From NCBI GenBank assembly GCA_913056395.1, contig CAJXMG010000005.1, positions 1-64,000 on the forward strand: a DNA stretch of 64,000 bases, given 5' to 3'. Source of the stretch: an uncultured bacterium (lineage in GTDB: Bacteria; Planctomycetota; UBA8108; UBA1146). Both the position numbers and the translations under genes were made by a program. The notes under the pieces are model-generated. The model ran no database searches. It was given only the letters and a program-made list of their open reading frames with translations, and had not been told where the DNA came from. Positions 46,806-62,859 of this stretch are shown here, piece by piece (position 1 is the stretch's first letter; each line of letters begins with the position of its first letter).

Positions 46806-47065
46806 AGAACTCCCAAATCCAGCACAAAGGCTTCGACAGGATACCCGGAACCACCACAGGAGGGGCCTCAACCCCAACAAAACCGAGTTATCGGAACCAT
46901 AGGGGAGCATTTTGCACTTTACACTTTATAAAGCATGTGTCACCCTCTCACCGGGTTGGGGCACTTTTGTGCACATACGAGCAGGGTTGCACCAACACAG
47001 GGCAATGGAATTGTCCGCAATGAATCAGCATAGGGTGTGAAGAAGTAGGTTTGAGGTGTGCGACA

Positions 47066-47198: not shown

Positions 47199-49163
47199 AT
47201 GACGCAGCAATTCGACGGCTCAAGGAGGTCTACTTCAGAGTCGCTCTCCAGCACCCATCAGTTTCAGAAGACATGGGAAGAACTGGGACAAGGGGCAAGG
47301 GTCATCCTGATCCTTGGAATGGTTCTCTTCGTTTACGGGTTTTTCCTGAACGGTGACCGTCTGATTGAGATTCCCGAGGTGGAAGTTCCGGGTGCACAAC
47401 ACACTCAGGTCGTCCAGTTCCTCGAAGAGGAAAACATCCGTTACGACTACACCGACGCGGGAACCCTCAGGGTCGCAAAGAGTGAAACTCCCAAGGTCGT
47501 CGCTTTTCTGGACCGATTTGTCGTCGGTTTTCAAAAGCCTGAAATGAAAACTGCGATTGCAAAGACCGGATTTGGAAATTCTCTCTCTGAGCTGACAAAC
47601 TTCCGGGGCAAGGCGTCCCAGAGATCCAATAGCAGGATCGATGACATCGTTCGATCTGCAGAAGAAGAAGTCGCAAGGTTTGAAGGTATCAATGCTGCGA
47701 CCATTGTTCCAAACAGGATTTCAGCAGAGAGGCATTCTCAGAATAAGTTCACCCGAATCAATCGGGTGAGTGTTCAGCTTGAACTCAATGAAGGCCGCAA
47801 GGATTACGGTCTCGACAGTGGGATGGTCAAACTGATCAAGTCGCATGTCAGTGTCGCATTGGATGTTCCTGCTGTAGCTGTGCAGATTTCTGACACAAGC
47901 GGAAGATTTTACGACGTCAGAAACAGCCAGCCCACCGCCGCTGATCTTCGCAATAAAGTGAATGTAATCGAAGACAGGGTTGCAAAGTTCATGGCGAACA
48001 TCCTTGAAGAGGGTACTTACAGGATTCAGGTAGATGTTGGAGCTCCCGCTTTACCGAATGATCCTGCTGTCTTTGGAGACAACTTTCCCAAAGAGTGGCC
48101 CAGCATCGATCAGATCAATGACAAGCTGATTCAATTGACCCCGGTAACAGGCCCCCTCCCAAGCGACATTGTCACTCTTGATGCCTTGAAAAATGCCCAG
48201 TCCCGCTCACGCTGGAATCAGATTGCAGAAGATTCCACCCGAAATGTGGCTGTCACCGTGTTTGTCGATCGCGGTCCTGCAAAAGCGGTACTCGATCCGG
48301 TAGATCCCATGCAGCACCTGAACTTTGATCCGGTCATCCCGATTCCTGCACAGGACAACTTTCAGTCGATGACCCGGGATATCGCACGCCACCTGGAGGA
48401 GCACCTTCGTGCGACCTTCCGTGGCGACGATGTCACCGCCCGCGTGGTTCCGGTCAATCTGATCGGCGAAAATGGTCAACTTGCAAGTTCAGCCTTCTCA
48501 GTCGCTGAGTTTTACGGCACCGGGGCTGCAGCGGGTGAAACCTCACAAAATACGACAATCTTCTTCTTTTCGGTGATCGCACTTCTCTTTGTCGTACTGA
48601 TGTTCCGTGACGGGCCGAAGGATGCCGAAAAGGGATATTCGATCACAGGGTTCCACGGCGGGTTCATCGAGAGATCGGCGGATAACGTCAGAACCCAAAG
48701 TGATTTCAAATCAGCAGTGTCCTCCTCTGAATATCCTGCCGTCGTTACACAGATCAATCACAAAACATTCGAGGAGCGTCTGGAGATTCTCAGGGCCATC
48801 GTCAGCAATCAGGAGGAAAATCTTCCTGGTAGCGACGTTCTTGCTCTGATGATTTTTGACCTTTCAGAAAATCGTCAAGAGATCTTTGAGTGCCTGAAGA
48901 ATGAGGAATGTGAAGTGCTCTTCCAGTTGATCGATGGGATCACCGGACCCATTGGCTCTGAAGAAATTGAAGACGCCTTTGCCGCTTTCGAACTGATTAC
49001 CACTGGCTTGAATCAGGAAAGCGAGATCCCCGTTCTTGTCACGACAGTGCCTACCCGTCCAGAGATTGATGAGAAAGTCATCGCAGATATTCGAAATCAT
49101 AATCCTGCTTTGGCAGAAGTGATTTCCAAGACACGTGGAGAAGATTCAGGGAAGGTTTCCTAA
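47199..49163 (+). CDS. fliF: Flagellar MS-ring protein FliF with C-terminal FliG-N-like extension
   Basis: A 654 aa MS-ring protein. First span VILILGMVLFVYGFFL (residues about 34-50), ring-building domains including VSVQLELNEGRKDYG and VALDVPAVAVQISDT, second span IFFFSVIALLFVVLMF (about 451-469). The cytoplasmic tail is about 180 residues, roughly 100 longer than usual. Residues about 543-603 align without gaps to the FliG N-terminal domain pattern (ALMIFDLSENRQEIFECL; hydrophobic spacing of FliG AVLLVALG...VMKHL), and the end has IRNHNPALAEVI, resembling a FliG motif. No fliG follows in its usual place. ATG at 47199; the stop overlaps fliH. Confidence 0.88.
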   Translation: MTQQFDGSRRSTSESLSSTHQFQKTWEELGQGARVILILGMVLFVYGFFLNGDRLIEIPEVEVPGAQHTQVVQFLEEENIRYDYTDAGTLRVAKSETPKVVAFLDRFVVGFQKPEMKTAIAKTGFGNSLSELTNFRGKASQRSNSRIDDIVRSAEEEVARFEGINAATIVPNRISAERHSQNKFTRINRVSVQLELNEGRKDYGLDSGMVKLIKSHVSVALDVPAVAVQISDTSGRFYDVRNSQPTAADLRNKVNVIEDRVAKFMANILEEGTYRIQVDVGAPALPNDPAVFGDNFPKEWPSIDQINDKLIQLTPVTGPLPSDIVTLDALKNAQSRSRWNQIAEDSTRNVAVTVFVDRGPAKAVLDPVDPMQHLNFDPVIPIPAQDNFQSMTRDIARHLEEHLRATFRGDDVTARVVPVNLIGENGQLASSAFSVAEFYGTGAAAGETSQNTTIFFFSVIALLFVVLMFRDGPKDAEKGYSITGFHGGFIERSADNVRTQSDFKSAVSSSEYPAVVTQINHKTFEERLEILRAIVSNQEENLPGSDVLALMIFDLSENRQEIFECLKNEECEVLFQLIDGITGPIGSEEIEDAFAAFELITTGLNQESEIPVLVTTVPTRPEIDEKVIADIRNHNPALAEVISKTRGEDSGKVS

Positions 49164-50005
49164 TGGAAAACGAACCTCGCGGCCACGATTCTCCGTTGGA
49201 TGCAGAGCCTGAAGAGAGGGCCATCGCTGAAGCGCGACTGGAACTCGAAGCATTGAGACAGGCTTATGATGATCTGATGGGACAACTGCGGATTGAAGGC
49301 GAAGAGCAGCAGAAGCGCCTTCAAGTCGCTCGGGATGCGGAGAGAGAACGCATCGCAACCCAGATCGAGGAAGCCAACGCCAAAGCTGCAAAAATACGTC
49401 AGCAGGCTCTGGTCGAATGCGAGTCACTTCGCAAAGAGGCTACCGAAGAGGGACGTCGCGGGGGTTATGAACTCGGCTATGAAGAAGGCGTTCATAGGGG
49501 GCTCGAGGAGAGTCGCCGGATCGCTCGAGAGAATACCGAGAAGGCTGCGCGTGAGATTCTGGGTGAATCCTGTGGCACTGTTCCCGCAATGTTGAATGAA
49601 TGCCTCGGTGACTTTGATCGGGTATGGCGTGGAACTGTCGGCGAGATGCGCAGGGACACTGTGGCCCTCTCAAGAGGAATTGCTGAGAGGATTCTCAGAC
49701 GAGAGATCGATCGTCTCCCTCAGCTGGTACTCGAAAACATTGAAGTGGCGATTCAGAGAATCTCCGATCGTCGAAGATTGTGTATTGAAGTTCACCCCGC
49801 AGATCTGGAATCGGTCATCGAGTTTCTTCCTGAATTGGGGAAGCGGATTCGGGGAGCCGAAGCTGCGGAGGTCATCGGCCACGAGGCGATCCAGCGTGGT
49901 GGCTGTCGCGTTAAAGGTGAGACAGGTCATGTCGACCTTTGCATCGACACTCAACTGGATTTGATTGAGTCCGCATTGATCCGAAACACTCAGGTGTCCG
50001 GATGA
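49163..50005 (+). CDS. fliH: Flagellar export regulator FliH
   Basis: A 280 aa cytoplasmic protein that binds and restrains the FliI ATPase and links it to the C-ring. The N-terminal two-thirds is a Glu/Arg/Ala coiled coil with a glycine-repeat segment (GRRGGYELGYEEGVHRG, FliH GxxxG type), and the C-terminal domain has VAIQRISDRRRLCIEVHPADLE and VIGHEAIQRGGCRVKGETGHVD, the FliH/V-ATPase E-like signature ending in D. Starts with ATG overlapping the fliF stop (TAATG). Confidence 0.88.
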   Translation: MENEPRGHDSPLDAEPEERAIAEARLELEALRQAYDDLMGQLRIEGEEQQKRLQVARDAERERIATQIEEANAKAAKIRQQALVECESLRKEATEEGRRGGYELGYEEGVHRGLEESRRIARENTEKAAREILGESCGTVPAMLNECLGDFDRVWRGTVGEMRRDTVALSRGIAERILRREIDRLPQLVLENIEVAIQRISDRRRLCIEVHPADLESVIEFLPELGKRIRGAEAAEVIGHEAIQRGGCRVKGETGHVDLCIDTQLDLIESALIRNTQVSG

Positions 50006-51327
50006 ATCTTATTTCCGCACTGGACAGCCTTGGCAACGATGGACTCGCCAGGGTTCAGGGCAGGGTCGTCGCCGTAACGGGAGTTCTCGTTGAGGCGGAA
50101 GGAATCGCTCTTCCTGTCGGTGCGGAATGTGAAATTGTGTCGCGATCAGGAACCCGAACTCTCGCTGAAGTCGTGGGCTTTTCCGGTGAGCGGACACACC
50201 TTCTTCCAGAATGTGGAATTGATGGAATCGGCCCCATGGATGAAGTGATTCATGATGGTGAGATTCCTTCGGTTCCCGTATCGGAAGAGCTTCTGGGAAG
50301 AGTGATCGACGCCAGGGGGAATCCGATTGATGGCCTGGGCCCCATCACAGGTACCATTCGGTTTCCCATTGAGAATGAACCGACTCCTGCACTGAAGAGG
50401 TCTTTGATCGAGCAGCCGATGTCGACCGGAGTTAGAGCCATCGATGGAGTCTTGACCGCGGGTAGAGGACAACGGTTGGGTGTCTTTTCCGGGAGCGGAG
50501 TCGGCAAATCGACTCTCCTCGGGATGATCGCCCGAAACACCGATTTGCCGATTCGGGTCATCGCACTCATCGGAGAGCGCGGCCGTGAGGTCCGGGAGTT
50601 TCTCGAGCGAGACCTCGGGCCGGAAGGTCTCAAAAATACGGTAGTCGTCGTCGCAACCAGCGATGAAGCAGCGGTTCTTAGAATCAGAGCGGCAAAAGTC
50701 GCTACCTCCATTGCCGAATGGTTTCGAAACAGTGGCAGGGACGTCCTGTTACTGGTCGATTCCCTGACTCGCGTCGCACTTGCCCAGAGAGAAGTGGGTT
50801 TGAGTGCGGGAGAGCCACCCGCTACCCGGGGCTATACGCCGAGTGTTTTCGCAATGATGCCAAAACTGTTGGAACGGACCGGTCCGGGAGAAAGTGCCAG
50901 TATCACGGCATTCTATTCGGTCCTCGTTGAGGCGGATGACCAGCATGACCCGATTGGCGATGCCGTAAGGGGAATTCTGGATGGGCAGATCTGGCTATCC
51001 AGAGACTACGCCAGCAAGGGTTGGTTTCCTCCCATCGATCCCTGCGTCAGTACCAGTCGAACGATGCCGGCAGTTGTGACGGAAGACCATCTGTCGGCGG
51101 CAAGGAGTCTCAGGGAATCGCTGTCGGTTTACTCTGAAATCGAGGACCTGATTCGATTGGGTGCATTCAAGCAAGGTCAGGATGCCAGAGCGGATCGGGC
51201 CGCACGACTCAAGCCGCAGATTGAGAAATTCCTGCGACAGTTACCGGAAGAGCAATCCGGGTATGAACAAACTCGAGATCGTCTGATCGCGCTTGTCTCT
51301 GAAAATGAGGCGGTGAAATCAGCATGA
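50002..51327 (+). CDS. fliI: Flagellum-specific ATPase FliI
   Basis: Export ATPase of the flagellar type III system, 441 aa. Walker A is GVFSGSGVGKSTLLGMIAR, then ALIGERGREVREFLERDLG, Walker B DVLLLVDSLTRVA, and the type III ATPase signature GEPPATRGYTPSVFAMMPKL. The rotary-ATPase N-terminal barrel is present. ATGA overlaps on both sides with fliH and fliJ. Confidence 0.95.
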   Translation: MNLISALDSLGNDGLARVQGRVVAVTGVLVEAEGIALPVGAECEIVSRSGTRTLAEVVGFSGERTHLLPECGIDGIGPMDEVIHDGEIPSVPVSEELLGRVIDARGNPIDGLGPITGTIRFPIENEPTPALKRSLIEQPMSTGVRAIDGVLTAGRGQRLGVFSGSGVGKSTLLGMIARNTDLPIRVIALIGERGREVREFLERDLGPEGLKNTVVVVATSDEAAVLRIRAAKVATSIAEWFRNSGRDVLLLVDSLTRVALAQREVGLSAGEPPATRGYTPSVFAMMPKLLERTGPGESASITAFYSVLVEADDQHDPIGDAVRGILDGQIWLSRDYASKGWFPPIDPCVSTSRTMPAVVTEDHLSAARSLRESLSVYSEIEDLIRLGAFKQGQDARADRAARLKPQIEKFLRQLPEEQSGYEQTRDRLIALVSENEAVKSA

Positions 51328-51773
51328 AGACTCAGGCTCAAAGAATGAATGCCCTCCTCAAGGTCAGGGAAGCAGAGCTGGAGGCTGCGGTCTCAAGGCT
51401 TTTGGAAAAACGTACGGGTCTTCTTGAGGGATTGGCAAAACTGAAAACGCTGGAATCTGAAAAGAAGAAGGCTTCTTCCGAAATCTATGAAAATGCAGAA
51501 GGTCATGACCCCGTACTACACGGAAGATTCATGGCAAGACTGCGCCGAGAAGCATTGCGACTGACAAAGGAAATCACGGGTCTTCAGGAAACCGTCGATG
51601 TCGCAAGAGAGCGGGTCAAATCGGCTCACAACAGGCATGCTTCAGTGGATTCATTGATCAAACGGAAAAATGCAGACGACCTGTTGAAGAAACAGAAATC
51701 AGAAGAAAGACAAATGGATGGCGAAAGTTGTCAGCAGTTTGTCACAAGAGGACTCAGAGGTGAGGCGAGTTGA
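51324..51773 (+). CDS. fliJ: FliJ-like flagellar export coiled-coil protein
   Basis: A 149 aa, highly charged, all-helical protein of two long coiled-coil stretches (LLKVREAELEAAVSRLLEKR; ERVKSAHNRHASVDSLIKRK). FliJ sequences are poorly conserved, so the call rests on size, coiled-coil character and position directly after fliI with an ATGA overlap. FliJ is the stalk-like subunit of the export ATPase and cycles chaperones. Confidence 0.75.
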   Translation: MKTQAQRMNALLKVREAELEAAVSRLLEKRTGLLEGLAKLKTLESEKKKASSEIYENAEGHDPVLHGRFMARLRREALRLTKEITGLQETVDVARERVKSAHNRHASVDSLIKRKNADDLLKKQKSEERQMDGESCQQFVTRGLRGEAS

Positions 51774-51840: not shown

Positions 51841-52470
51841 ATGAAAAATCAGGGATTCAGGATCTTCCACATCGTTTCAATCGTTTTGCTTCTCGTCATG
51901 TTGGGAACGGGAGAAGCCCATTCGCAGTTGTTTCCTATTACGGAAGGAACCAGCGGATCTTCTTCCGCATCAGCTGTAAACAACACAGCCATGCCCTCAG
52001 CAAATGGATCTACGAACTCTCCAGGTTTGCAGTCTTTACTCGAAGCGATCGGAACAATCTTGATTCTGTCCGGTCTTGGAGTTGGGGTCGTGCTGCTGGC
52101 AAGAAAGTATTTCCCAAATGTGATTCCAGGAACCGATGCACGAATGAAGGTCTTGACTCGACTACCGATTGGAAATCGCCAAAACCTGGTGGTGTTCCGA
52201 GTGGGGGAGCGAGTCCTTGTTGTGGCCCAGTCTCCCAACCGAGTAGATCTGCTTTCAGAGATTTGTGATCCGGAAGAAGTACAGAACCTCAGTTATGGAA
52301 CCGATTTCTCCAGAGAGTTGGAGCGGGTTCGAATCGACACTCAAGACGATGAGTTTCCTGAGCAGTACGAGCCTGAAGCCACGGATACAGGAGTACGTGA
52401 AGAAATCCAGTGGCTGAGAGAGAGACTTGACGGCTACGGAGAGCGAACGGAAGAAGAAGTAAGAAGTTGA
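51841..52470 (+). CDS. fliO: FliO-like flagellar biosynthesis membrane protein
   Basis: A 209 aa protein: signal-like segment (IVSIVLLLVMLGTGEAHS), Ser/Asn-rich linker, one span (AIGTILILSGLGVGVVLLA), then a FliO-type cytosolic domain with VLTRLPIGNRQNLVVFRVGE, close to the family pattern RxxLGxxxSLxVVxVGxR, and an acidic tail. FliO acts as a scaffold for FliP ring assembly. Placed immediately before fliP with a TTGA overlap. Confidence 0.82.
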   Translation: MKNQGFRIFHIVSIVLLLVMLGTGEAHSQLFPITEGTSGSSSASAVNNTAMPSANGSTNSPGLQSLLEAIGTILILSGLGVGVVLLARKYFPNVIPGTDARMKVLTRLPIGNRQNLVVFRVGERVLVVAQSPNRVDLLSEICDPEEVQNLSYGTDFSRELERVRIDTQDDEFPEQYEPEATDTGVREEIQWLRERLDGYGERTEEEVRS

Positions 52471-53303
52471 ATGTAACAAGTTTCAAAACACTGATGATTT
52501 GGTTTGGGGTTTTGGGGGCTGTGGTACTGGGATCTCCAGTAGCAGTGGCCGCAGAAGAAACCTCTGATATCGTCAGCAAAGTGCTCGATGGAAATCCGGA
52601 AAGCTTCGGGATTTCCATCAAGCTGTTGCTGATTACAACGGTGGTGGCAGTTGCCCCGGCATTGCTTCTTTTGACCACCAGCTTTACCAGAATCATCATT
52701 GTTTTGGGATTCGTTCGCAGGGCGATCGGTGCCCAGGATGCTCCACCCAATCAGGTGATTTTCGGATTATCGCTGCTTTTGACTCTCGTGGTGATGGGAC
52801 CAACATGGTCCGACATATACGAGAACTCGATTCAGCCCTACTCCAATCAGGAGATCTCACCAGTCACCGGTGAAGTGGTGACAGCAAATGAAGCATTTTC
52901 TTATGCTGACGCCCGCGTCCGGGAATTCATGTACCCCTTCATCAGCCCAGAGGACTTGATCCTCATGGCGAAGGTGGGTGCACCGGAGACTTACCGCGAT
53001 CTCTACGATGAAGAGGCCGCAGTTGTGACACGCGAGTTTGCGGATGCCTTGCCTTTGACCGTCGTTGTTCCTGCATTTGTTTTGGCCGAGTTGAAGTTGG
53101 CATTCCAAATGGGTGTCATGATCTTTATTCCTTTCCTCGTCATTGATCTGGTTGTCAGTGCGATTCTCGTGGCGATGGGAATGTTCATGCTGCCACCGAT
53201 TTTGGTATCGCTGCCATTCAAGATATTGGTCTTTGTTTTGGCCGATGGCTGGTCGCTGGTGGTGGAGCAGTTGCTCTTCACAGGTTCCAGGGCGGTGGCC
53301 TGA
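52467..53303 (+). CDS. fliP: Flagellar export gate protein FliP
   Basis: A 278 aa core export-gate subunit. Cleavable-type signal (FGVLGAVVLGSPVAVAA), then the conserved LLLITTVVAVAPALLLLTTSF and RIIIVLGFVRRAIGAQDAPP block, periplasmic loop, and C-terminal spans (FQMGVMIFIPFLVIDLVVSA; MFMLPPILVSLPFKIL). TTG start in a TTGA overlap with fliO; stop overlaps fliQ. Confidence 0.95.
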   Translation: MNVTSFKTLMIWFGVLGAVVLGSPVAVAAEETSDIVSKVLDGNPESFGISIKLLLITTVVAVAPALLLLTTSFTRIIIVLGFVRRAIGAQDAPPNQVIFGLSLLLTLVVMGPTWSDIYENSIQPYSNQEISPVTGEVVTANEAFSYADARVREFMYPFISPEDLILMAKVGAPETYRDLYDEEAAVVTREFADALPLTVVVPAFVLAELKLAFQMGVMIFIPFLVIDLVVSAILVAMGMFMLPPILVSLPFKILVFVLADGWSLVVEQLLFTGSRAVA

Positions 53304-53578
53304 TGGAGCTGGATCGTGTACTCGATTTTTTGCAGGCTGCATTGGCCATGGCACTGCAAATGTCGATCCCCGTTCTATTGGCGATCATCATCGTTGGCCT
53401 GATCACCAATTTGATTCAAGCAGTGTTTCAGCTTCAGGACCAGAGTTTGTCTCTCGTTCCAAGGATGATCGCAGTTGCATTGGTGCTGGCTTTGATGATG
53501 CCGGAGATGATCGACTGGATCGTCAGTTTCACGAAGGACAGTTTGCAGGTTTCGGGTGGATTTCTTTCAGGCAGGTGA
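53303..53578 (+). CDS. fliQ: Flagellar export gate protein FliQ
   Basis: A 91 aa two-span protein (ALQMSIPVLLAIIIVGLITN and MIAVALVLALMMPEMIDWIV) with the conserved IQAVFQLQDQSL loop. FliQ forms part of the FliPQR spiral gate. ATG shares a base with the fliP stop. Confidence 0.94.
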   Translation: MELDRVLDFLQAALAMALQMSIPVLLAIIIVGLITNLIQAVFQLQDQSLSLVPRMIAVALVLALMMPEMIDWIVSFTKDSLQVSGGFLSGR

Positions 53579-53581
53579 TGG

Positions 53582-54400
53582 ATGGATCAACTGATTGAAA
53601 TCTCGACCGCTTCCTGGAGCACTTGGCTGCTGGTCAGTGCCCGGTTTTTCGGAGCCATGTTGGTCTTGCCGTTGTTTTCCGAAAATACGATCCCACTCCG
53701 TTTCAAATTTGGATTCGCTTTTTTCCTCGCATTGATCGTCGCTCCCATGGATCTCTCAGGGCAAAGTGCGAGCCTCGCATTTTCTGACCCGGCCTCAGCC
53801 ATCGTTGGACTTGGTGGTGAGTTGGCGTTGGGTTGGGTTTTGGGTTGCGCGCTTGCTTTGGTGATCTGGGGGGCCCGCTTGGGTGCCGCATGGCTTGGTG
53901 CGTTCACAGGTGACGCAGCATTTTCGACGGGACAACAAGAAGAAACCGGTGAGTCTCCGCTGACCACTTTGCTGACCCTGTTCGCTACACTTGCATTCAT
54001 TGGCCTCGACGGACATCGGTTGGTGATGCTGATGCTGATCGACTCTTTCCAGAAAGTACCAGCGGGTGTTTTTGCCTCGGTCATGTCGGGGAATATGACT
54101 GAGCTCGGTGAAGAGGCCGCCTCTGCCGCCGGAGCAGTGGGGCAACAAACCTGGTTGATCGGTTTGGAAATTGCATTCCCCGCGGTTGCAGTTCTGTTGC
54201 TGATCACGCTGGTTCTTGGAATCCTCAGCCGTGTCACACCCCAAATTGATGTCTTCTTTACGGGCTTCGCACTGAGGACAAGTGTGGGGTTCGCGATGAT
54301 TTTCCTCTTCTTGCCCTTTATCGCTGAAGTCTTCTCGTTCGTTGTCGAAAGAAGTCTGCAGGGAACGGGTGCCGTTCTGGACCGATTGGCAGGTGGGTAG
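53582..54400 (+). CDS. fliR: Flagellar export gate protein FliR
   Basis: A 272 aa protein with about six spans. Shows ARFFGAMLVLPLFSENTIP near the N-terminus, ELALGWVLGCALALVIWGARLG, the LIDSFQKVPAG loop and the typical DVFFTGFALRTSVGFAMI end region. One FliR closes the FliP5Q4R1 gate. ATG 53582 is chosen; another ATG at 53578 is out of frame. Confidence 0.92.
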   Translation: MDQLIEISTASWSTWLLVSARFFGAMLVLPLFSENTIPLRFKFGFAFFLALIVAPMDLSGQSASLAFSDPASAIVGLGGELALGWVLGCALALVIWGARLGAAWLGAFTGDAAFSTGQQEETGESPLTTLLTLFATLAFIGLDGHRLVMLMLIDSFQKVPAGVFASVMSGNMTELGEEAASAAGAVGQQTWLIGLEIAFPAVAVLLLITLVLGILSRVTPQIDVFFTGFALRTSVGFAMIFLFLPFIAEVFSFVVERSLQGTGAVLDRLAGG

Positions 54401-54402
54401 TC

Positions 54403-55203
54403 ATGAGCCTGTCAGAGGACAAAATTCACAAGCCCAGTTCCAAAAGACTCCGCAATGCTGCGGAGAATGGGCAATTCCCCTACAGCTCTGATCTGGCAGT
54501 GGCACTGGCGCTTCTCACGGGCTGTATTCTGGTCAGCCTCATCGCACAAAACCTGACGGATAAATTTGTTGGTTTCTACCGAGATTTTTATTCGACTTCA
54601 TTTGCTGAGTTGACGGATGTGCAAACAGTGATGAACGATCTCCCCATGCTCATTTTGGGTTTCGTTGCTCCGCTTGCATTGACGGTGTGGTTCATTTCAT
54701 TGGTCGTGTCATGGATTCAGTCACCCAAAGTGGCTCGCAAAAATGCATTTTCGGATCCTTCAGCCAATTGGAATCCGGCAAATCGCTGGGAGCAGCTGGT
54801 ATCGGTGACCACACCCCTTCGATTGCTGTTTCAACTGGTTCGCATGGCTGCTGTTGTAGGAATCGCCTGGTATGGCTTGCTGCAGTTGGTCGACGTCTCC
54901 GGAAATGCCACAGCGGGGAGTCCGCAAGTCACCGCTTCTGAGGCCTTCGCAATTTACCCGGGAGTTTTGATCCAGATCTGCATGGTGATCCTTGTCTTTG
55001 CGGTCATCGATCGCCTTTGGCAGCAAAAAATATGGTGGGATTCGGTGCATATGACTCCTGAAGAACTCAAGAAAGAGAGCAGGGAAACCTATGGTGACCC
55101 GCTCATTCGGAAAAAACGGAAACAGTCCCACCGAAAATTGATCTCTGCATTGTCGGGGAGCCTCCCCGCTTCACTGAGAACCGACGAGGGGAAATCCCAA
55201 TGA
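54403..55203 (+). CDS. flhB: Flagellar export protein FlhB lacking the NPTH cytoplasmic domain
   Basis: Only 266 aa, against the usual 350-390. The N-terminal KIHKPSSKRLRNAAENGQFP and four membrane segments are normal for FlhB, as is the linker start MTPEELKKESRETYGDPLIR. The chain ends about 30 residues later, just where the VPxADVVxxNPTH autocleavage region should begin. The stop overlaps the flhA start (ATGA at 55200-55203), so no cut-off remnant follows. The missing FlhB-C domain normally switches export from hook to filament substrates; it may be encoded elsewhere or be dispensable here. Confidence 0.9.
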   Translation: MSLSEDKIHKPSSKRLRNAAENGQFPYSSDLAVALALLTGCILVSLIAQNLTDKFVGFYRDFYSTSFAELTDVQTVMNDLPMLILGFVAPLALTVWFISLVVSWIQSPKVARKNAFSDPSANWNPANRWEQLVSVTTPLRLLFQLVRMAAVVGIAWYGLLQLVDVSGNATAGSPQVTASEAFAIYPGVLIQICMVILVFAVIDRLWQQKIWWDSVHMTPEELKKESRETYGDPLIRKKRKQSHRKLISALSGSLPASLRTDEGKSQ

Positions 55204-57401
55204 ATCAAAGTCCACTGAACCGCTTTCCTGATTCAGGAGAATTGCGCAGTTCCATCGACAGGAACCGGGATCTCGCTCTGATCCTGGCATTGGGTGGGAT
55301 TCTCGTCGCCATTCTGGTTCCCCTCCCTGGTGCTGTCATGGACGCACTTCTGGGAGTGAACATTGCCGTGTCGGTGTTGATTTTGCTGACGGTGGTCTAC
55401 CTCAGAGGACCCCTCGAGTTTGCGGCTTTCCCGTCGATGTTGCTCATCGCCACTCTTTACCGATTGGCTCTCAATATCGCCACCACACGTCTGGTTCTGA
55501 GCAAGGCTCAGAATGAAGGCTCGATGGCTGCGGGCAAGGTGGTCAACTTTTTTGGTGAATTTGTCTCCGGTTCAAACGCCGTCGTCGGATTCATCATCTT
55601 TTCTGTTCTGGTGGTCATTCAATTTCTTGTGGTGACCAAGGGTGCTTCCCGAATCGCCGAGGTCGCAGCACGCTTCTCCCTCGACAGGATGCCAGGGGCG
55701 CAAATGTCCATCGATGCGGATTTGACCGCTGGCAACATCAGTGCCTCCGAGGCCCGACTGGCCAGAGAAGACCTTGCTCTCAAGGCAGATTTTTATGGAG
55801 CCATGGATGGTGCCAGTAAATTCGTCAGGGGAGATGCCATCGCCGCGGTTCTGATCACCACCATCAACATTTTGGGTGGTATCTGCCTCGGTGTTTTCTC
55901 TTACGGCATGGGATTCACTGAATCACTTCAGGTTTTCGCCACTCTGACCATTGGTGACGGTATCGCTACCCAGTTGCCGGCACTTTTCATTAGTGTTGCC
56001 GCTGCATTGATGGTGACCCGTGCTTCGTCGCAGGGACAAGTGGGGCATGCCCTAGTAGGGCAGGTTTTCGCCAATCCCAGAGCCTTGTTCATCACTGCAG
56101 TGATTCTGATTCTTCTGGGATCCTTCGGTTTGTCCCCCGTTGCATTGGGTGGACTGGCCGTTTGCTTGCTGGCGGTAGCGTTCTTTAAAGGCAGCCGTGG
56201 AAATGGCACCGAAGTCTCGGGGGCTGGCGGTCGCACACCAGCGCTGGACAGCCGATCTTCGGTGGAGCCCATCGAGAAAGAAATGGCAACGATCTCCTCC
56301 GATTCGGAGATTTATCGATACCCCCTCGCCATCGAGTTCGGGACTGGCCTGTACCCTCTGATTGAACCGGAGGATGGCAAGAAAATCGGAGTGGCAGTGG
56401 AGTCGTTGCGTCTGAAGCTCCGCCAGCGCCTGGGAATCGATTTGCCGGCGGTCAAAATCGCCACGAATTCAAAGCTGGGCCGTCGTGATTATCAGATCTC
56501 CCTGAGGCAGATCATCGCTGGCAGGGGAACAATCGAGGGTGAGATGAATTTCCTCTGTGAAGGAGGGGGTAGATCTCTTGCCGGTGTGCCTGGAGATCCC
56601 GGAACCCATCCGGTCACAGGCCAAAGTGGAAAGTGGGTCGACAACGAGGAGGCGATCATCCGCAAGGGCCTGGGAAGCCCCTGTGACAGTGGGCAGGAGA
56701 TTGTTCTGCGCCACTTGGAAGAGGTCGCCATGTCCCATGCTCCGGATTTGCTGACCCGGTCCGAGGTGCAGATCTTGCTGGATCACCTCCATGCAGGGGC
56801 AAAGCCCCTCGCTCAGGAATTGATTCCGGGGGTCTTCTCTCTGGCGGAATTCCAGAGGGTCCTTCAGGCATTGTTGGCAGAGAGGGTCTCATTGAGAGAC
56901 CTTGAGAAGGTCCTCGAAGCCCTCGGTGAGGTCGCCATCGAGTGGCCTGAAGCCAGTCGGAGACCGGTGGAGGCCGTGGTTGAAAAGGTCAGAAACCGGG
57001 TTTCCCGGTCGATTTGCGCCCCATTGGCCACTGATGGTGGGGTGATCTACGCCGTCACTCTCGCACCGGAGATCGAGCAGAAAATCCACGAAGCCCGGCT
57101 TCAGGGGATCCCGGGGGCGGTCCCGGAGTTGGCTCCGGTGGAACACCGGGCGATTCTTCAGGCGATTCGTGGGCAGCTGGAAAATCTGCTGGCGAGCGGA
57201 AAATCTGGAGTGATTTTGTGCACTCCGGAGCTGAGAAGTTCCATCCAGAAGTTATTGGAGAAGGAAGTGCCAACGGCCGCTGTCCTCTCCTACAATGAAG
57301 TCGCTCACGGGTTCACCGTGAAATCCGGGGGGATTGCGAGTGTTGATTTCTGCTCAGCAGATTCTTCGCTCACAGGGGAAAGGGAAGCATCCTTTGAATG
57401 A
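55200..57401 (+). CDS. flhA: Flagellar export protein FlhA
   Basis: A 733 aa export-gate protein. Membrane half: PLPGAVMDALLGVNIAVSVL, the strongly conserved FPSMLLIATLYRLALNIATTR, the FHIPEP-like loop ARFSLDRMPGAQMSIDADLT with AGNISASEARLARED. Cytosolic nonamer-forming half: YPLAIEFGTGLYPLIEPEDG, LLTRSEVQILLDHL and LSYNEVAHGF at the end. The FHIPEP proton-coupling region is intact. Overlaps both neighbours. Confidence 0.95.
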   Translation: MNQSPLNRFPDSGELRSSIDRNRDLALILALGGILVAILVPLPGAVMDALLGVNIAVSVLILLTVVYLRGPLEFAAFPSMLLIATLYRLALNIATTRLVLSKAQNEGSMAAGKVVNFFGEFVSGSNAVVGFIIFSVLVVIQFLVVTKGASRIAEVAARFSLDRMPGAQMSIDADLTAGNISASEARLAREDLALKADFYGAMDGASKFVRGDAIAAVLITTINILGGICLGVFSYGMGFTESLQVFATLTIGDGIATQLPALFISVAAALMVTRASSQGQVGHALVGQVFANPRALFITAVILILLGSFGLSPVALGGLAVCLLAVAFFKGSRGNGTEVSGAGGRTPALDSRSSVEPIEKEMATISSDSEIYRYPLAIEFGTGLYPLIEPEDGKKIGVAVESLRLKLRQRLGIDLPAVKIATNSKLGRRDYQISLRQIIAGRGTIEGEMNFLCEGGGRSLAGVPGDPGTHPVTGQSGKWVDNEEAIIRKGLGSPCDSGQEIVLRHLEEVAMSHAPDLLTRSEVQILLDHLHAGAKPLAQELIPGVFSLAEFQRVLQALLAERVSLRDLEKVLEALGEVAIEWPEASRRPVEAVVEKVRNRVSRSICAPLATDGGVIYAVTLAPEIEQKIHEARLQGIPGAVPELAPVEHRAILQAIRGQLENLLASGKSGVILCTPELRSSIQKLLEKEVPTAAVLSYNEVAHGFTVKSGGIASVDFCSADSSLTGEREASFE

Positions 57402-59037
57402 CTTTAACGACTTGGTCGATGCGGAGCACACCCGCGTCGTGGCACCTGACTACGCCACCGCTGTTCGTATCCTGCAGGAAAGATTTGGCAGCGACTGGAC
57501 CGTCGTTCACTCACGCAAAGTTCGCCGTCCAGGGATTCTGGGTTGGATCGGTCTCTCTGATGTTGTGGTGATCGTCAGAACCCAAAAATCGAGTAACGAT
57601 ATTCTGACGACGCCAATTCAGCTGGACGCTGCGATCGAGGAAAAGATTCCTGTTCTGGCCGGGGATTTCTCCAGCGAGGAAATGGAATCCACGGTGCCTG
57701 AGTCGGAGGTTTCCAATCCGGAACCTCTGGTATCACTGAATTCCATCGACGTCGTGGATGCTCCGACGTTGACTTCAGCGATGGAAACAGAATTGGTCGC
57801 CGGGGTGAATGAGGAAATGACGAATCCAACTGTTTCGGTTTCCGAGTCTGATGTGTTCGCTTCCGCAGATCAGAACACTGAAGCTTCTTTCGGTGAGTCG
57901 GTGAATCAGGACTCCAACACCAGTCAGCCTACTTCGACAGACTCCGTAACTCTGAATACAGAAGTGAAGGAGCAGGAAGGGTTTAACCCGATTGCTTCCG
58001 TGAAAGAGCAGGGCACTGTGAGCCACGAATCCTTTAACTCTCTTTCAGCAAGACTGGAAGATTCCAAGCAACGCATCGCGGAAGAGTTGAGAGCCTTCAA
58101 TTCTGCCTCACCCTTCCACAGAGCACCGGACCCGTGGCAAACATCCAGCGAGGGATCGACGGGAACGACTTCAGATGTGGTCGGAATAGCTTCCTTCTCT
58201 GAAGAAACTGCCGCTGAGAAGAGCGTCTTTGATGATCCGCTGTTCCTTGGCAAAGTCTCCACGGTGCTGGAGAGATGCGGATTTTCTGCCAATGCATGTC
58301 GGGAAATCAAAAATGCAGTCAGCAGCGCCAATGTTCCTGACAATCTGGATGAGGCCGCTCTCGACACCCTGATCGAAAATCGTGTCGGCGCCTGTGTCAT
58401 GGGCCGCATTCCTCAAGCAGGCGGAATCTCGTTGGCAAACACCGCTGGCAAGACCCGTTTTGTTGCATTGGTGGGGCCGACCGGTGTCGGAAAAACGACA
58501 ACTCTTGCCAAGCTCGCCGCCTATTTCCATGTGGTGGAAAAGAAAAAGGTGGGTTTGATTACCCTCGACTCCTACCGCTTGGGAGCCATCGAGCAACTTC
58601 GCCGTTTTGCAGACATCATAGGTCTCAATTTCAAGACGGTCGATCAGCCAGAAAAGGTTCGCGAGGAAATCGAGTCATTCAGCAAATATGACATCGTGTT
58701 CATCGACACTGCGGGGCGCAGCCAAAAAGACGTCGATCGCCTGAGAGAGGTGAGAGACTGCTTGTCCAATGTCAACGATCTTGAGATTCACCTCTGTCTT
58801 TCTCTGGGAGCCGCACCTGAAGCTCTCATGGCCACTGCGGATGCATTCCGGATCGTCGGCTACGACCATGTGATTCTTACCAAACGCGATGAGTCCTACA
58901 GCAAGGGTTTCCTTTGGGATCTCTTCGGGGTCATGCAGAAACCGATCTCCTATGTCACCTGCGGACAGGAAGTTCCGGAAGATTTCGATGCCGCCTCCCG
59001 TGAGGAGATTCGCGACATGATCCTCGGAGTTGAATGA
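57394..59037 (+). CDS. flhF: SRP-family GTPase FlhF
   Basis: Flagellar placement GTPase, 547 aa. N-terminal B domain (APDYATAVRILQERFG), then a long acidic Ser/Thr/Glu-rich, probably disordered segment (about residues 70-290), then the NG module: [20 protein letters not shown] near residue 360, LITLDSYRLGAIEQLRRFAD, VFIDTAGRSQKD, and ILTKRDE. The TTG at 57394 follows AGGGAAG; an ATG at 57334 would lie within flhA. Works with FlhG to set flagellar number and site. ATGA overlap with flhG. Confidence 0.92.
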   Translation: MNDFNDLVDAEHTRVVAPDYATAVRILQERFGSDWTVVHSRKVRRPGILGWIGLSDVVVIVRTQKSSNDILTTPIQLDAAIEEKIPVLAGDFSSEEMESTVPESEVSNPEPLVSLNSIDVVDAPTLTSAMETELVAGVNEEMTNPTVSVSESDVFASADQNTEASFGESVNQDSNTSQPTSTDSVTLNTEVKEQEGFNPIASVKEQGTVSHESFNSLSARLEDSKQRIAEELRAFNSASPFHRAPDPWQTSSEGSTGTTSDVVGIASFSEETAAEKSVFDDPLFLGKVSTVLERCGFSANACREIKNAVSSANVPDNLDEAALDTLIENRVGACVMGRIPQAGGISLANTAGKTRFVALVGPTGVGKTTTLAKLAAYFHVVEKKKVGLITLDSYRLGAIEQLRRFADIIGLNFKTVDQPEKVREEIESFSKYDIVFIDTAGRSQKDVDRLREVRDCLSNVNDLEIHLCLSLGAAPEALMATADAFRIVGYDHVILTKRDESYSKGFLWDLFGVMQKPISYVTCGQEVPEDFDAASREEIRDMILGVE

Positions 59038-59909
59038 GGGATCAGGCGTGGAAACTTCGATCGCTACTGGCTGAGAGCCCCACTCGTTTGAATGGCGGGG
59101 GAAGGGTTCTCGCCGTGACCAGCGGCAAGGGAGGAGTGGGGAAGACCAACGTCTCTGTTGGTCTTGCCTTGAGTGCTGCCCGCTCCGGCCTTTCCACCGT
59201 ACTGATAGATGGAGATCTGGGACTCGCCAACATAGATGTCATTCTCGATATTCACTCAGAGAAAAATCTGGGTCATTTGGTCGAGGGTGAAGCTCAGTTG
59301 AGGGAAATCCTGGTAACAGGTCCAGAAGGGATCCGTATCCTTCCGGGTGCCAGCGGATTGACCCAGGTTGCGGATATGGGTCACACCAGACAGCAACGGC
59401 TTCTCGATGCCATGGGTGAATTGGTACACAGCCATGAGCTGGTGATCATCGATACCGGTGCCGGAATCTCAAGATCTGTGATTGACCTGTGTCAGGCCGC
59501 GGGAGAGGTGTTGGTGGTGACCACACCTGAACCGACAGCAGTGGTTGATGCGTATGCCATGCTCAAGGTTTTCTCGTGTGATGTTCCGACACCCAAGTGT
59601 TGGTTGACCGTCAATCAGGCCCAATCCAGGGGCGAAGCCCAGCAAGTCGCATCCAGGATCACTGCTCTGGCCAACAAGTTCCTGTCTCTCGAGGTCGAAA
59701 ATGCCGGATCAGTTTTGTTTGATCCGCGTGTGTCGGCTTCTGTGAGAAAAAGACAGCACTTCACGAGGGCCTATCCCGCCTCACCGGCCTCAAGGAGTAT
59801 CCGCGAATTAGCCTCTACGTTGGGGGTTCAGAAGGTTCAGGAATCCAGAGGTGGATTCCTCAATCGACTGAAAGAGGTATTTGTGGGGGATATCGGAGGG
59901 GCCCGATAG
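59034..59909 (+). CDS. flhG: MinD-like ATPase FlhG (FleN), flagellar number regulator
   Basis: A 291 aa deviant Walker-A ATPase: VTSGKGGVGKTNVSVGLAL, DGDLGLANIDVILDI, VIIDTGAGISRSVIDLC. The N-terminal DQAWKLRSLL matches the DQAxxLR helix of FlhG that stimulates FlhF GTPase, which separates it from MinD. Coupled to flhF by an ATGA overlap. Last gene of the tightly packed operon; 164 bp then separate it from fliA. Confidence 0.93.
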   Translation: MRDQAWKLRSLLAESPTRLNGGGRVLAVTSGKGGVGKTNVSVGLALSAARSGLSTVLIDGDLGLANIDVILDIHSEKNLGHLVEGEAQLREILVTGPEGIRILPGASGLTQVADMGHTRQQRLLDAMGELVHSHELVIIDTGAGISRSVIDLCQAAGEVLVVTTPEPTAVVDAYAMLKVFSCDVPTPKCWLTVNQAQSRGEAQQVASRITALANKFLSLEVENAGSVLFDPRVSASVRKRQHFTRAYPASPASRSIRELASTLGVQKVQESRGGFLNRLKEVFVGDIGGAR

Positions 59910-60073: not shown

Positions 60074-60919
60074 TTGGCTCAGGCCGGAAAAGACACCACC
60101 CAGAAAGATTTCCCGGGCACTCATTCCCTGGTCGGCAAGACCCGGTTGAGCGATGACCCCGAACTTGAGCGCAAATGGATCCACTACAAAGAGACCCAGA
60201 ACAGTGATTTGAAAAATGATTTGCTGGAGAGGTACCTTCCCATCGTTCGTTACGCTGCGGACCGTTTGCACAGAAAACTTCCCCAACAGGTGGATGTGGA
60301 TGACCTCTACGGTGCAGGTGTATTTGGTTTGATGGACGCGATCGAGAATTATGACCTCGAGCGGGGTGTCAAGTTTGAGACCTACTGCAACACCCGCGTG
60401 AATGGATCGATCATCGATTCTCTGCGTGCTCAGGATTGGGTTCCAAGACTGGTGCGCAGTACGGCCAATCGTCTGGAGAAAGCCTGGAAAGAGTTGGAGC
60501 TGGAATCGGGGCGAGAGCCGACCGATCTTGAGATGGCTCATCATCTTGGAGTGACGGAAGAAGAATACGAGCAACTTCAGCGCGAAGCTTCGGCGGCTTC
60601 CATCGTTTCATTGACAGACCATGTCTCTGACGAAACTGATTCCCGATCACTTCGCAAAATAGATATGCTCAATGATGCAAAAACTCCAGCGCCGGAATCC
60701 AATCTGCAGATGGAAACCATCATGCAGGCTCTGAATGAGAAGCTGGATGAACGTGAGCGGCAGATTTTCATTCGCTATTACTGGAATGGTGAGACGATGA
60801 AGGAGATCGGTGAGCGATTAGGCCTCTCCGAATCCCGGGTTTGCCAACTCCACTCGAGAACCGTACTCAAGCTGAGGCAACTTTTCGGTCACCGAGCGGA
60901 AGATTTCGCGACCGATTGA
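60074..60919 (+). CDS. fliA: Flagellar sigma factor FliA (sigma-28 / WhiG family)
   Basis: A 281 aa group 3 sigma factor. Region 2 has YAADRLHRKLPQQVDVDDLYGAG-like residues and VKFETYCNTRVNGSIIDSLR with DWVPR, the sigma-28 hallmark; region 3 is LESGREPTDLEMAHHLGV; region 4 ends MKEIGERLGLSESRVCQLHS. Directs late flagellar and chemotaxis genes; an FlgM anti-sigma is not in this window. TTG start at 60074 with AGGAGA upstream. Confidence 0.93.
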   Translation: MAQAGKDTTQKDFPGTHSLVGKTRLSDDPELERKWIHYKETQNSDLKNDLLERYLPIVRYAADRLHRKLPQQVDVDDLYGAGVFGLMDAIENYDLERGVKFETYCNTRVNGSIIDSLRAQDWVPRLVRSTANRLEKAWKELELESGREPTDLEMAHHLGVTEEEYEQLQREASAASIVSLTDHVSDETDSRSLRKIDMLNDAKTPAPESNLQMETIMQALNEKLDERERQIFIRYYWNGETMKEIGERLGLSESRVCQLHSRTVLKLRQLFGHRAEDFATD

Positions 60920-60981: not shown

Positions 60982-62859
60982 ATGATCGATCCAAAAATGC
61001 CACCGGAAGACGAGCCGCATATTGATGGTGAGGCTCAAGGCTCTGATTCTAAGTCTGGAAACGATGAAGAGGCGAACGGGCTTTTGCGTGGCATAGCATG
61101 GATTATGCTGGCTCCCGTCATTTTCCTGAAAGAGCTCCTCCACGGGCTCGGGTTCTATCTGGCCATTTTTCTGGTTGCTTTATCTCTCGGTCAATATCTC
61201 CCTAAAGCGTTCGAACTGATCTCTTTTCCCCATCAGTTGAGATATGGGGAAGCGGTGGTCGTGGATCAGGTCCGCAGAGTTTCCGAAGACCCGGGGCTTT
61301 ACCCGCCGATTGGTGCTGAACCGTGGCTTTTTGACCAATACGCCCCAGGTTACCCGGTATTGGTCAGCCTCTTTCAACCGCTGTTTGATTCTCCCTACGA
61401 AGCTGGGAGATGGATCTCCCTTCTCTTCACCATGCTCGCGGCAATCTTTTTGGCGCTCTGGGTTAAATCGACCGGCGACTTCTCCCTCGATCAATCAAAG
61501 AAAATTGCAGAAGAAAAAAGGGGACAGTACCTACCCAGGACTGCCGCTCTCATGGCAATTGCCGGCGTGTTTTCCCTGCTGGAGTTCATTCAATTTGGTT
61601 ATCTGATGCGAATCGATGCGATGGCATTGGGACTGACGGTCGCTGGTGCATGGTTGACCTTGGGAGTTGCCCCGCGCTGGCGCTGGCTGGGGGCAGCTTG
61701 TTTCTTTTTGGCGGTCTATACCCGACAGACGATGCTGGCGATGATTCTCCTGACCTATGCCGAGCTTTATCTCCGTGAGGGCAAAGTGGCGTTTCGCTGG
61801 GGGAGCGGCCTTCTTGCGGCAGGACTGCTCTTCTTTGTCGGCCTGAACATCTCCACCGATGGCGGCTTTTATCGCCATGCGGTCGCTTCAAACCTGTTTC
61901 CCATGAATTGGGAATACGGAATCAAAAAGTATCTGGGTTCTTTTCCCCAATGGAAGACTCCCGTCTTTTTGGCGATGTACATGGCGCTGTTTCTTCACTT
62001 GCGAGCGGTTCCCCGATACCGGGCGATGGCGTGGACTTTGTTGACAGGAATGGTCTCGCTGACGCTACCGGTGTTTTGGAGTTCATTCAGTAGTGGGACG
62101 ATGACAGAAGATGATCTCGGCTTTTTGTTGGGGGCACACGGGGTTCTGGTGTTTACCAGTCTCGCCCTGGTCATCCTGCGCCCATCCACCGCAGGAGCCT
62201 TCGACGGAGTTCGATCTTTGGCGATCCTCGGTTTTACCTTGCTGATTGCCAGAGATGGATCAGATCTGAATTATCTTTTTGAACCCACGCTGTTGATGTT
62301 GCTGATTCCACTGCAGTACATCTTGCGGCAAGAAGAAGAGAAAGATTGGTTCAAGGGGACAATCCTGTTGCTGGTCATATTGCAGGTATTGGTTGGTGTT
62401 TATCGCAGTGGGAAGATCACCGAGTTCAATCCGGAACGATTGGAAGAGATGGCAGAGCGAACTCGTGTGACCAAGAGACTGAACGAGATTGAAGGGCCAA
62501 TTCTCAGTGAGGAGCCCTGGGTGCTGGTCGAATCGGGGCGGCCTCTGGTTATCGAGCCTTATACCGCGAGACAGATGTACGAATCTGATGTGTGGGATGC
62601 CAATGACCTTCGAAAAGCCATCGAAGAGGGTAAATATCCCGCTGTGATTCGATCGAAACAAAGGGTGTATGCGGGCATCGACCCAAACACAGGGCGGCCC
62701 TACTTTGGTCCATGGACGTACAACAGTGTGAGATCCTTCCCCAGAAAAATTCAGGATATTCTCGATCGCCATTATGTCGCGTTGGAGCGATCCGAGTTTG
62801 TCGAAAAGGTCACCGATTATTATTTGGAGGGGCGCCAAATCTGGGTGCCGCGCCGATAG
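60982..62859 (+). CDS. GT-C-type polytopic membrane glycosyltransferase, probable
   Basis: A 625 aa protein with a polar N-terminus, about eleven membrane spans and a soluble C-terminal tail. The first extracytoplasmic loop YGEAVVVDQVRRVSEDPGLY followed by LFDQYAPGYPVLVSLF resembles GT-C enzymes that use polyprenyl-phosphate sugars (ArnT/GT39/GT87-like), where an early acidic residue is catalytic. ATG at 60982 has AGGGAAG upstream. It follows fliA by 62 bp, so co-transcription and a role in glycosylating flagellar or surface protein are possible but unproven. Confidence 0.68.
   Translation: MIDPKMPPEDEPHIDGEAQGSDSKSGNDEEANGLLRGIAWIMLAPVIFLKELLHGLGFYLAIFLVALSLGQYLPKAFELISFPHQLRYGEAVVVDQVRRVSEDPGLYPPIGAEPWLFDQYAPGYPVLVSLFQPLFDSPYEAGRWISLLFTMLAAIFLALWVKSTGDFSLDQSKKIAEEKRGQYLPRTAALMAIAGVFSLLEFIQFGYLMRIDAMALGLTVAGAWLTLGVAPRWRWLGAACFFLAVYTRQTMLAMILLTYAELYLREGKVAFRWGSGLLAAGLLFFVGLNISTDGGFYRHAVASNLFPMNWEYGIKKYLGSFPQWKTPVFLAMYMALFLHLRAVPRYRAMAWTLLTGMVSLTLPVFWSSFSSGTMTEDDLGFLLGAHGVLVFTSLALVILRPSTAGAFDGVRSLAILGFTLLIARDGSDLNYLFEPTLLMLLIPLQYILRQEEEKDWFKGTILLLVILQVLVGVYRSGKITEFNPERLEEMAERTRVTKRLNEIEGPILSEEPWVLVESGRPLVIEPYTARQMYESDVWDANDLRKAIEEGKYPAVIRSKQRVYAGIDPNTGRPYFGPWTYNSVRSFPRKIQDILDRHYVALERSEFVEKVTDYYLEGRQIWVPRR

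Follow-up and report, generated by a model that had tools for sequence, protein, structure and literature searches.

We describe a locus of Planctomycetota that we interpret, with moderate confidence, as a flagellum pared down to its export machinery, in which the N-terminal domain of FliG (FliG-N) and a piece of the linker between its middle and C-terminal domains (the M-C linker) have been fused into FliF. The locus lies in a window of 64,000 nucleotides, the whole stretch of DNA analysed, which belongs to a metagenome-assembled genome (MAG) with 57 contigs, a size of 2.77 Mb, and a completeness of 95.1%. The genes of the operon and the segments of FliF given below are all on the forward strand.

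A divergent FliF with a long tail, and no fliG beside it

The fliF gene (47199-49163) encodes 654 residues with transmembrane helices at residues 32-50 (47292-47348) and 451-469 (48549-48605), the second one (TM2) being followed by a long cytoplasmic tail. No Pfam or NCBIfam FliF model recognises this protein, which is too divergent. The profile-profile alignment (hhalign) of its family with ordinary Planctomycetota FliF has a P of 4.7e-24 over 250 columns, and on this comparison the protein, with its two transmembrane helices, is unambiguously a homologue of the ring-building region of FliF. The tail after TM2 has 185 residues in the window and 185-190 in most relatives (one is an outlier in the transmembrane call), as against 64-103 in 12 ordinary Planctomycetota FliFs. 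The excess of around 90-120 residues agrees with the sequence-only reading of this DNA, which had put it at about 100. The gene coordinates also bear out its statement that fliF is followed directly by fliH and that fliG is absent from the operon, as fliH starts at 49163, immediately after fliF, with no fliG between them. Upstream of fliF, at about 46909-46990, the block TTGCxCTTTACACTTTATAAA is conserved in six genomes and is perhaps the promoter of a divergent CBS-domain gene; the sigma-28 promoter consensus has no match within the window.

The tail resembles two parts of FliG

Within the tail, whose residues 543-654 correspond to positions 48825-49160, we distinguish a predicted helical connector leading from the TM2 region, with a weak likeness to the second half of FliG-M (residues 505-539; 48711-48815), a FliG-N-like segment (residues 540-606; 48816-49016), and a motif like helix MC of the FliG M-C linker (residues 623-646; 49065-49136). 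The FliG-N-like segment emerges from several kinds of comparison. When a profile of the tail built from 11 relatives was searched against 177,635 PDB sequences, residues 3-63 of Salmonella FliG ranked first and second (E 0.006 and 0.0078), and the next match had an E of 0.47. Aligned by hhalign to 20 FliGs, residues 540-606 scored 31.3 at the FliG N domain, above the maximum of 200 column shuffles (21.5) and the reversed alignment (20.3). When 1806 open reading frames (ORFs) of the loci examined were ranked against the tail, the top five other than self-matches were all FliG; the best (E 1.1e-4) matched both tail segments in order, and in several of the five the two segments were colinear. Position-specific matrices (PSSMs) applied to residues 558-583 fitted for FliG-N (reached by 0 of 300 shuffles) and not for FliG-M. 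Four of 11 members matched the Pfam FliG_N model, weakly and below its cut-off (best E 0.0068), and the model found nothing in the window genome at E<=0.001. The tail spans only about four helices of FliG-N. An earlier claim, that residues 543-603 or so follow FliG-N without gaps, thus stands as a likeness, weak in any single sequence though better than chance, and is nearly right in its detail, the alignment having one gap of 1 residue. The structural comparison suggested with that claim had a mixed outcome: the PDB profile search puts FliG first, while two AlphaFold models, made from four near-identical sequences (the window and three other loci), had a pLDDT of 59-62, and none of the folds that Foldseek returned for these low-confidence models was a significant match, FliG coming up in a single search at E 8.9.

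For the linker-like motif, the highest score of the FliG-linker PSSM falls at residue 623 (z 7.4, 0 of 500 shuffles, next site 29 bits lower), which substantiates the 'DPELAExI'-like motif noticed at the C-terminus, and residues 618-654 score 28.7 against the M-C linker in hhalign, with a maximum of 18.8 in 200 column shuffles. The Pfam XPC-binding model also matches this motif in 7 of 11 members (best 2.2e-5), a caution that likeness over short motifs, that to the FliG linker included, can mislead. We set the XPC-binding identity aside, as the model describes a short helical motif of a eukaryotic family. The FliG-binding helix that ends canonical FliF proteins (V..l..dP..aA.vLr.WL) aligns to the window tail at noise level in hhalign, and its PSSM finds on the window FliF a best site of negative score (z 3.6, reached by 38 of 500 shuffles). 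Two placements of this helix were considered and rejected: residues 505-540, before the FliG-N-like segment, look plausible by eye and are supported by neither hhalign nor PSSM, and the extreme C-terminus, which is the best FliF-motif site, fits that motif far less well than it fits the FliG linker.

Two other readings of the tail deserve attention. It could be a FliF-specific helical domain, ARM-like by convergence and unrelated to FliG, in a system that would still be a reduced exporter. The weak single-sequence scores, the lack of a significant Foldseek match for low-confidence models, and the XPC-binding match to the C-terminal motif are compatible with such an origin. We nevertheless think it unlikely, because two blind procedures, the PDB search and the ranking of 1806 ORFs, both choose FliG, because two distinct segments correspond to FliG and do so in the proper order, and because the gene missing at this very position is that of FliG. 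Alternatively, the fused part could be the middle domain of FliG plus the linker, as in Chlamydiaceae, whose FliF tail was assigned to FliG-M (Bergeron 2016, PMC4768692). The top alignment of the whole tail in hhalign does continue from FliG-M into the linker with no large gap. Yet residues 540-606 taken alone score only with FliG-N (no second match exceeds 14.7), the PSSMs prefer N over M, and the PDB search aligns residues 3-63 of FliG, so that we regard this assignment as improbable. Four lines of sequence-profile evidence agree, each modest alone, and we conclude that the tail is quite probably homologous to FliG, with the N domain and the linker as its preferred sources.

The tail is restricted to one family and under purifying selection

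The tail was found in 13 of the 392 Planctomycetota genomes searched. All 13, which are MAGs of 83-95% completeness, belong to the family of the window, in the genera g1, g3, and g4, and the chimera is conserved among relatives, as the sequence-only reading had proposed to check. Codon comparisons with three close relatives give dN/dS values of 0.05-0.08 in FliF residues 543-603 and 0.06-0.07 in residues 619-646, around 0.05-0.1 for the tail overall, and 0.03-0.15 for most genes of the operon. These low values indicate that the tail is under purifying selection.

Motility parts are absent and FlhB is truncated

Profile models of FliG_C, FliM/FliN, and rod and hook proteins have no match in any of the 13 tail-bearing genomes, and the ten of them also tested for flagellin, MotB, FliG_M, and FliE lack these as well. 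The same tests find a full flagellar set in the sister genus g5 (G010 for all these proteins, G012 for FliG_C, FliM/FliN, and rod and hook proteins). The earlier suggestion had left open whether the remaining FliG domains were supplied separately or absent; they are absent, since neither FliG-M nor FliG-C has a match in the window genome, and the search of this genome for a FliG devoid of its N domain, or for a normal full-length fliG, found neither. It had also proposed that the fusion makes a permanent connection between the MS-ring and the switch complex. This part is not supported: with FliM/FliN, MotB, rod and hook proteins, FliE, and flagellin absent too, there is no switch or motor with which the MS-ring could be connected.

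The losses extend to FlhB. In the ten tested tail-bearing genomes it covers profile positions 1-250 of 335 or fewer, ends before the NPTH autocleavage site at a similar point throughout, and has no FlhB-CC part. Truncated forms of this kind occur in the window (54403-55203), in G008, G009, and G011, in the g1 genomes, and also in G020, discussed below. One could suppose that these bacteria build a working flagellum with switch, rod, and filament proteins so divergent that profile models miss them, given that FliF itself is beyond the recognition of Pfam and that FlhF, FlhG, and FliA are retained. This is the least probable of the explanations that we considered, because several independent families would have to be jointly missed in at least ten genomes and yet be found in the sister genus, and because the switch domain of FlhB, needed for the hook-to-filament transition, is absent as well.

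The export operon is complete and ordered

The type III export apparatus itself (FliPQR, FlhB, FlhA, and FliHIJ) is all present, FlhB being without its C-terminal part. After fliF come fliH (49163-50005; Pfam FliH E 3.2e-15), fliI for the export ATPase (50002-51327; FliI/YscN family, above cut-off), fliJ (51324-51773), fliO (51841-52470), and fliP (52467-53303), these last three recognised by the Pfam models of the same names, then fliQ (53303-53578; Pfam Bac_export_3), fliR (53582-54400; Pfam Bac_export_1), the truncated flhB (profile positions 1-240 of 335), and a full-length flhA (55200-57401; Pfam FHIPEP E 5.7e-199). They are followed by a flhF-like SRP GTPase gene (57334-59037; NCBIfam FlhF E 1.1e-46, slightly below cut-off), whose true start may lie slightly downstream of 57334, by a flhG-like MinD/ParA ATPase gene identified by family profiles (59034-59909), by a fliA/whiG-type sigma factor gene (60074-60919; TIGR02479 above cut-off), and by a gene for a conserved multispanning membrane protein (60982-62859). 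The latter is recognised by synteny, which it keeps across all clades of the reduced system (g1, g3, and g4). Three of six members of its family have a weak match to the PMT_2 glycosyltransferase model, a structure-database search found no solved relative, and its membership in the export system is uncertain.

The order fliF-H-I-J-O-P-Q-R-flhB-flhA-flhF-flhG-fliA plus the membrane protein gene (14 genes) is constant across the three genera, with the exception that BLAST did not recognise fliJ in the two g4 loci read. Flagellar models outscore injectisome models for FliI, FlhA, and FliP, and in the FliI tree the reduced systems form one clade (100/100), with the FliI of the sister genus placed nearby without firm support. 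The set fliFHIJOPQR-flhBAFG-fliA looks like an export-only remnant. Could it be instead a decaying and functionless relic of a lost flagellum, as the disappearance of every external part and of the motor, together with the truncation of FlhB, might suggest? We hold this to be very unlikely, since the 14-gene order is retained in three genera, dN/dS is 0.03-0.15 in most genes, FlhB ends at a uniform point, and no pseudogenes were seen in the operon.

A putative path from flagellum to exporter

If the locus is an export-only remnant, its history may be outlined as follows. In an ancestor, fliF would have merged with the fliG beside it into one reading frame, which is one small step, as in g5 the two genes touch or overlap. 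FliG would then have lost its middle and C-terminal domains, which bind FliM/FliN and transmit torque, so that FliG-N and a remnant of the M-C linker would make up the tail of FliF. The built-in FliG-N might replace FliG as a scaffold for the FliF ring around the FliPQR/FlhAB gate. In Vibrio, efficient formation of MS-rings by FliF requires FlhF, FliG, or the fusion of FliF to FliG (PMC11481574). Given that FlhF is kept and that FliG-N is inside FliF, the simplest role for the tail would be that of an internal scaffold of the ring. No C-ring would be needed for FliHIJ to dock there, and the putative machine, presumably non-rotating, would export its substrates without the early/late switch made by the C-terminal part of FlhB. 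This part switches export from rod and hook to late substrates (PMC7911332), and its loss is expected where no rod or hook is left.

Comparison with known fusions and reduced systems

Fusion of FliF and FliG has already been reported for Chlamydiaceae, where a truncated FliF carries a part assigned to FliG-M (Bergeron 2016, PMC4768692). What is new here is the combination of a full-size FliF, a probable remnant of the N domain, and a complete flagellar export operon; our literature search, which left out most subscription journals, found no report of this chimera in Planctomycetota. Both cases concern a natural FliF with a C-terminal FliG domain, a probable one in the window, in a bacterium of the PVC superphylum that is non-flagellated, here by its gene content, and has a few flagellar genes left. 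They differ in that the chlamydial FliF has about 330 residues and a shortened periplasmic part, whereas that of the window is full size; in that the FliG part is assigned to M in the former and looks like N plus linker in the latter, the tail fitting FliG-N better than FliG-M (compared by published description); and in that the window keeps the full flagellar export operon. Chlamydia also has an injectisome.

Engineered or selected FliF-FliG fusions (Salmonella; Vibrio FliFG, PMC11481574) likewise put FliF in frame with FliG, and the Vibrio one promotes MS-ring formation (PMC11481574), but they contain full-length FliG in complete flagella. The basal bodies of Buchnera represent another reduced flagellum, retained, as proposed in PMC8109811, for the sake of export; Buchnera keeps basal-body structural genes, which are absent from the window system. 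The non-flagellar type III systems of Myxococcales ('Myxo') are likewise conserved export loci without motility parts, once deemed relics and then argued to be functional (Abby and Rocha 2012, PMC3459982). They belong to another lineage, whereas the window system keeps FlhF, FlhG, FliA, the flagellar gene order, and a FliG-like FliF tail. The latter would be a second, apparently independent case of a flagellar-type exporter stripped of motility parts, and bears on the origin of injectisomes from flagella.

Other prunings of FliG in Planctomycetota

Four Planctomycetota lineages seem to retain different pieces of FliG, a pattern that comes from few genomes, several of them incomplete. In the family of the window, G007 has a separate FliG of 234 residues with the N and M domains only (L104, 13998-14702), and keeps FliM/N, FliE, and a full FlhB. 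G017 (L105, 9789-10724) and G019 (L106, 12143-12799) encode FliG as a protein of its own that comprises the N and C domains without M; both have FliE, and neither has FliM/N. G020 encodes next to fliF a standalone protein of 196 residues consisting of FliG-N only (L107, 3416-4006), seen only there; its FlhB is truncated, and it lacks both FliE and FliM/N. G034 has a different FliF-FliG chimera, a FliF-like protein whose C-terminus matches FliG-C (L108, 7321-8892). FliG-N is thus retained in all these prunings but that of G034, and truncation of FlhB accompanies the loss of FliE.

We see even chances that a flagellum became independently in Planctomycetota a non-rotating exporter with a putative role in secretion, FliG being cut down to its ring-building part and the C-terminal part of FlhB lost, and that the related lineages represent alternative stages of pruning. 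If true, these lineages would be natural experiments on which parts of the switch serve export and ring assembly and which serve rotation only. As a separate observation, the FlhB of G017 has NPSE in place of the expected NPTH.
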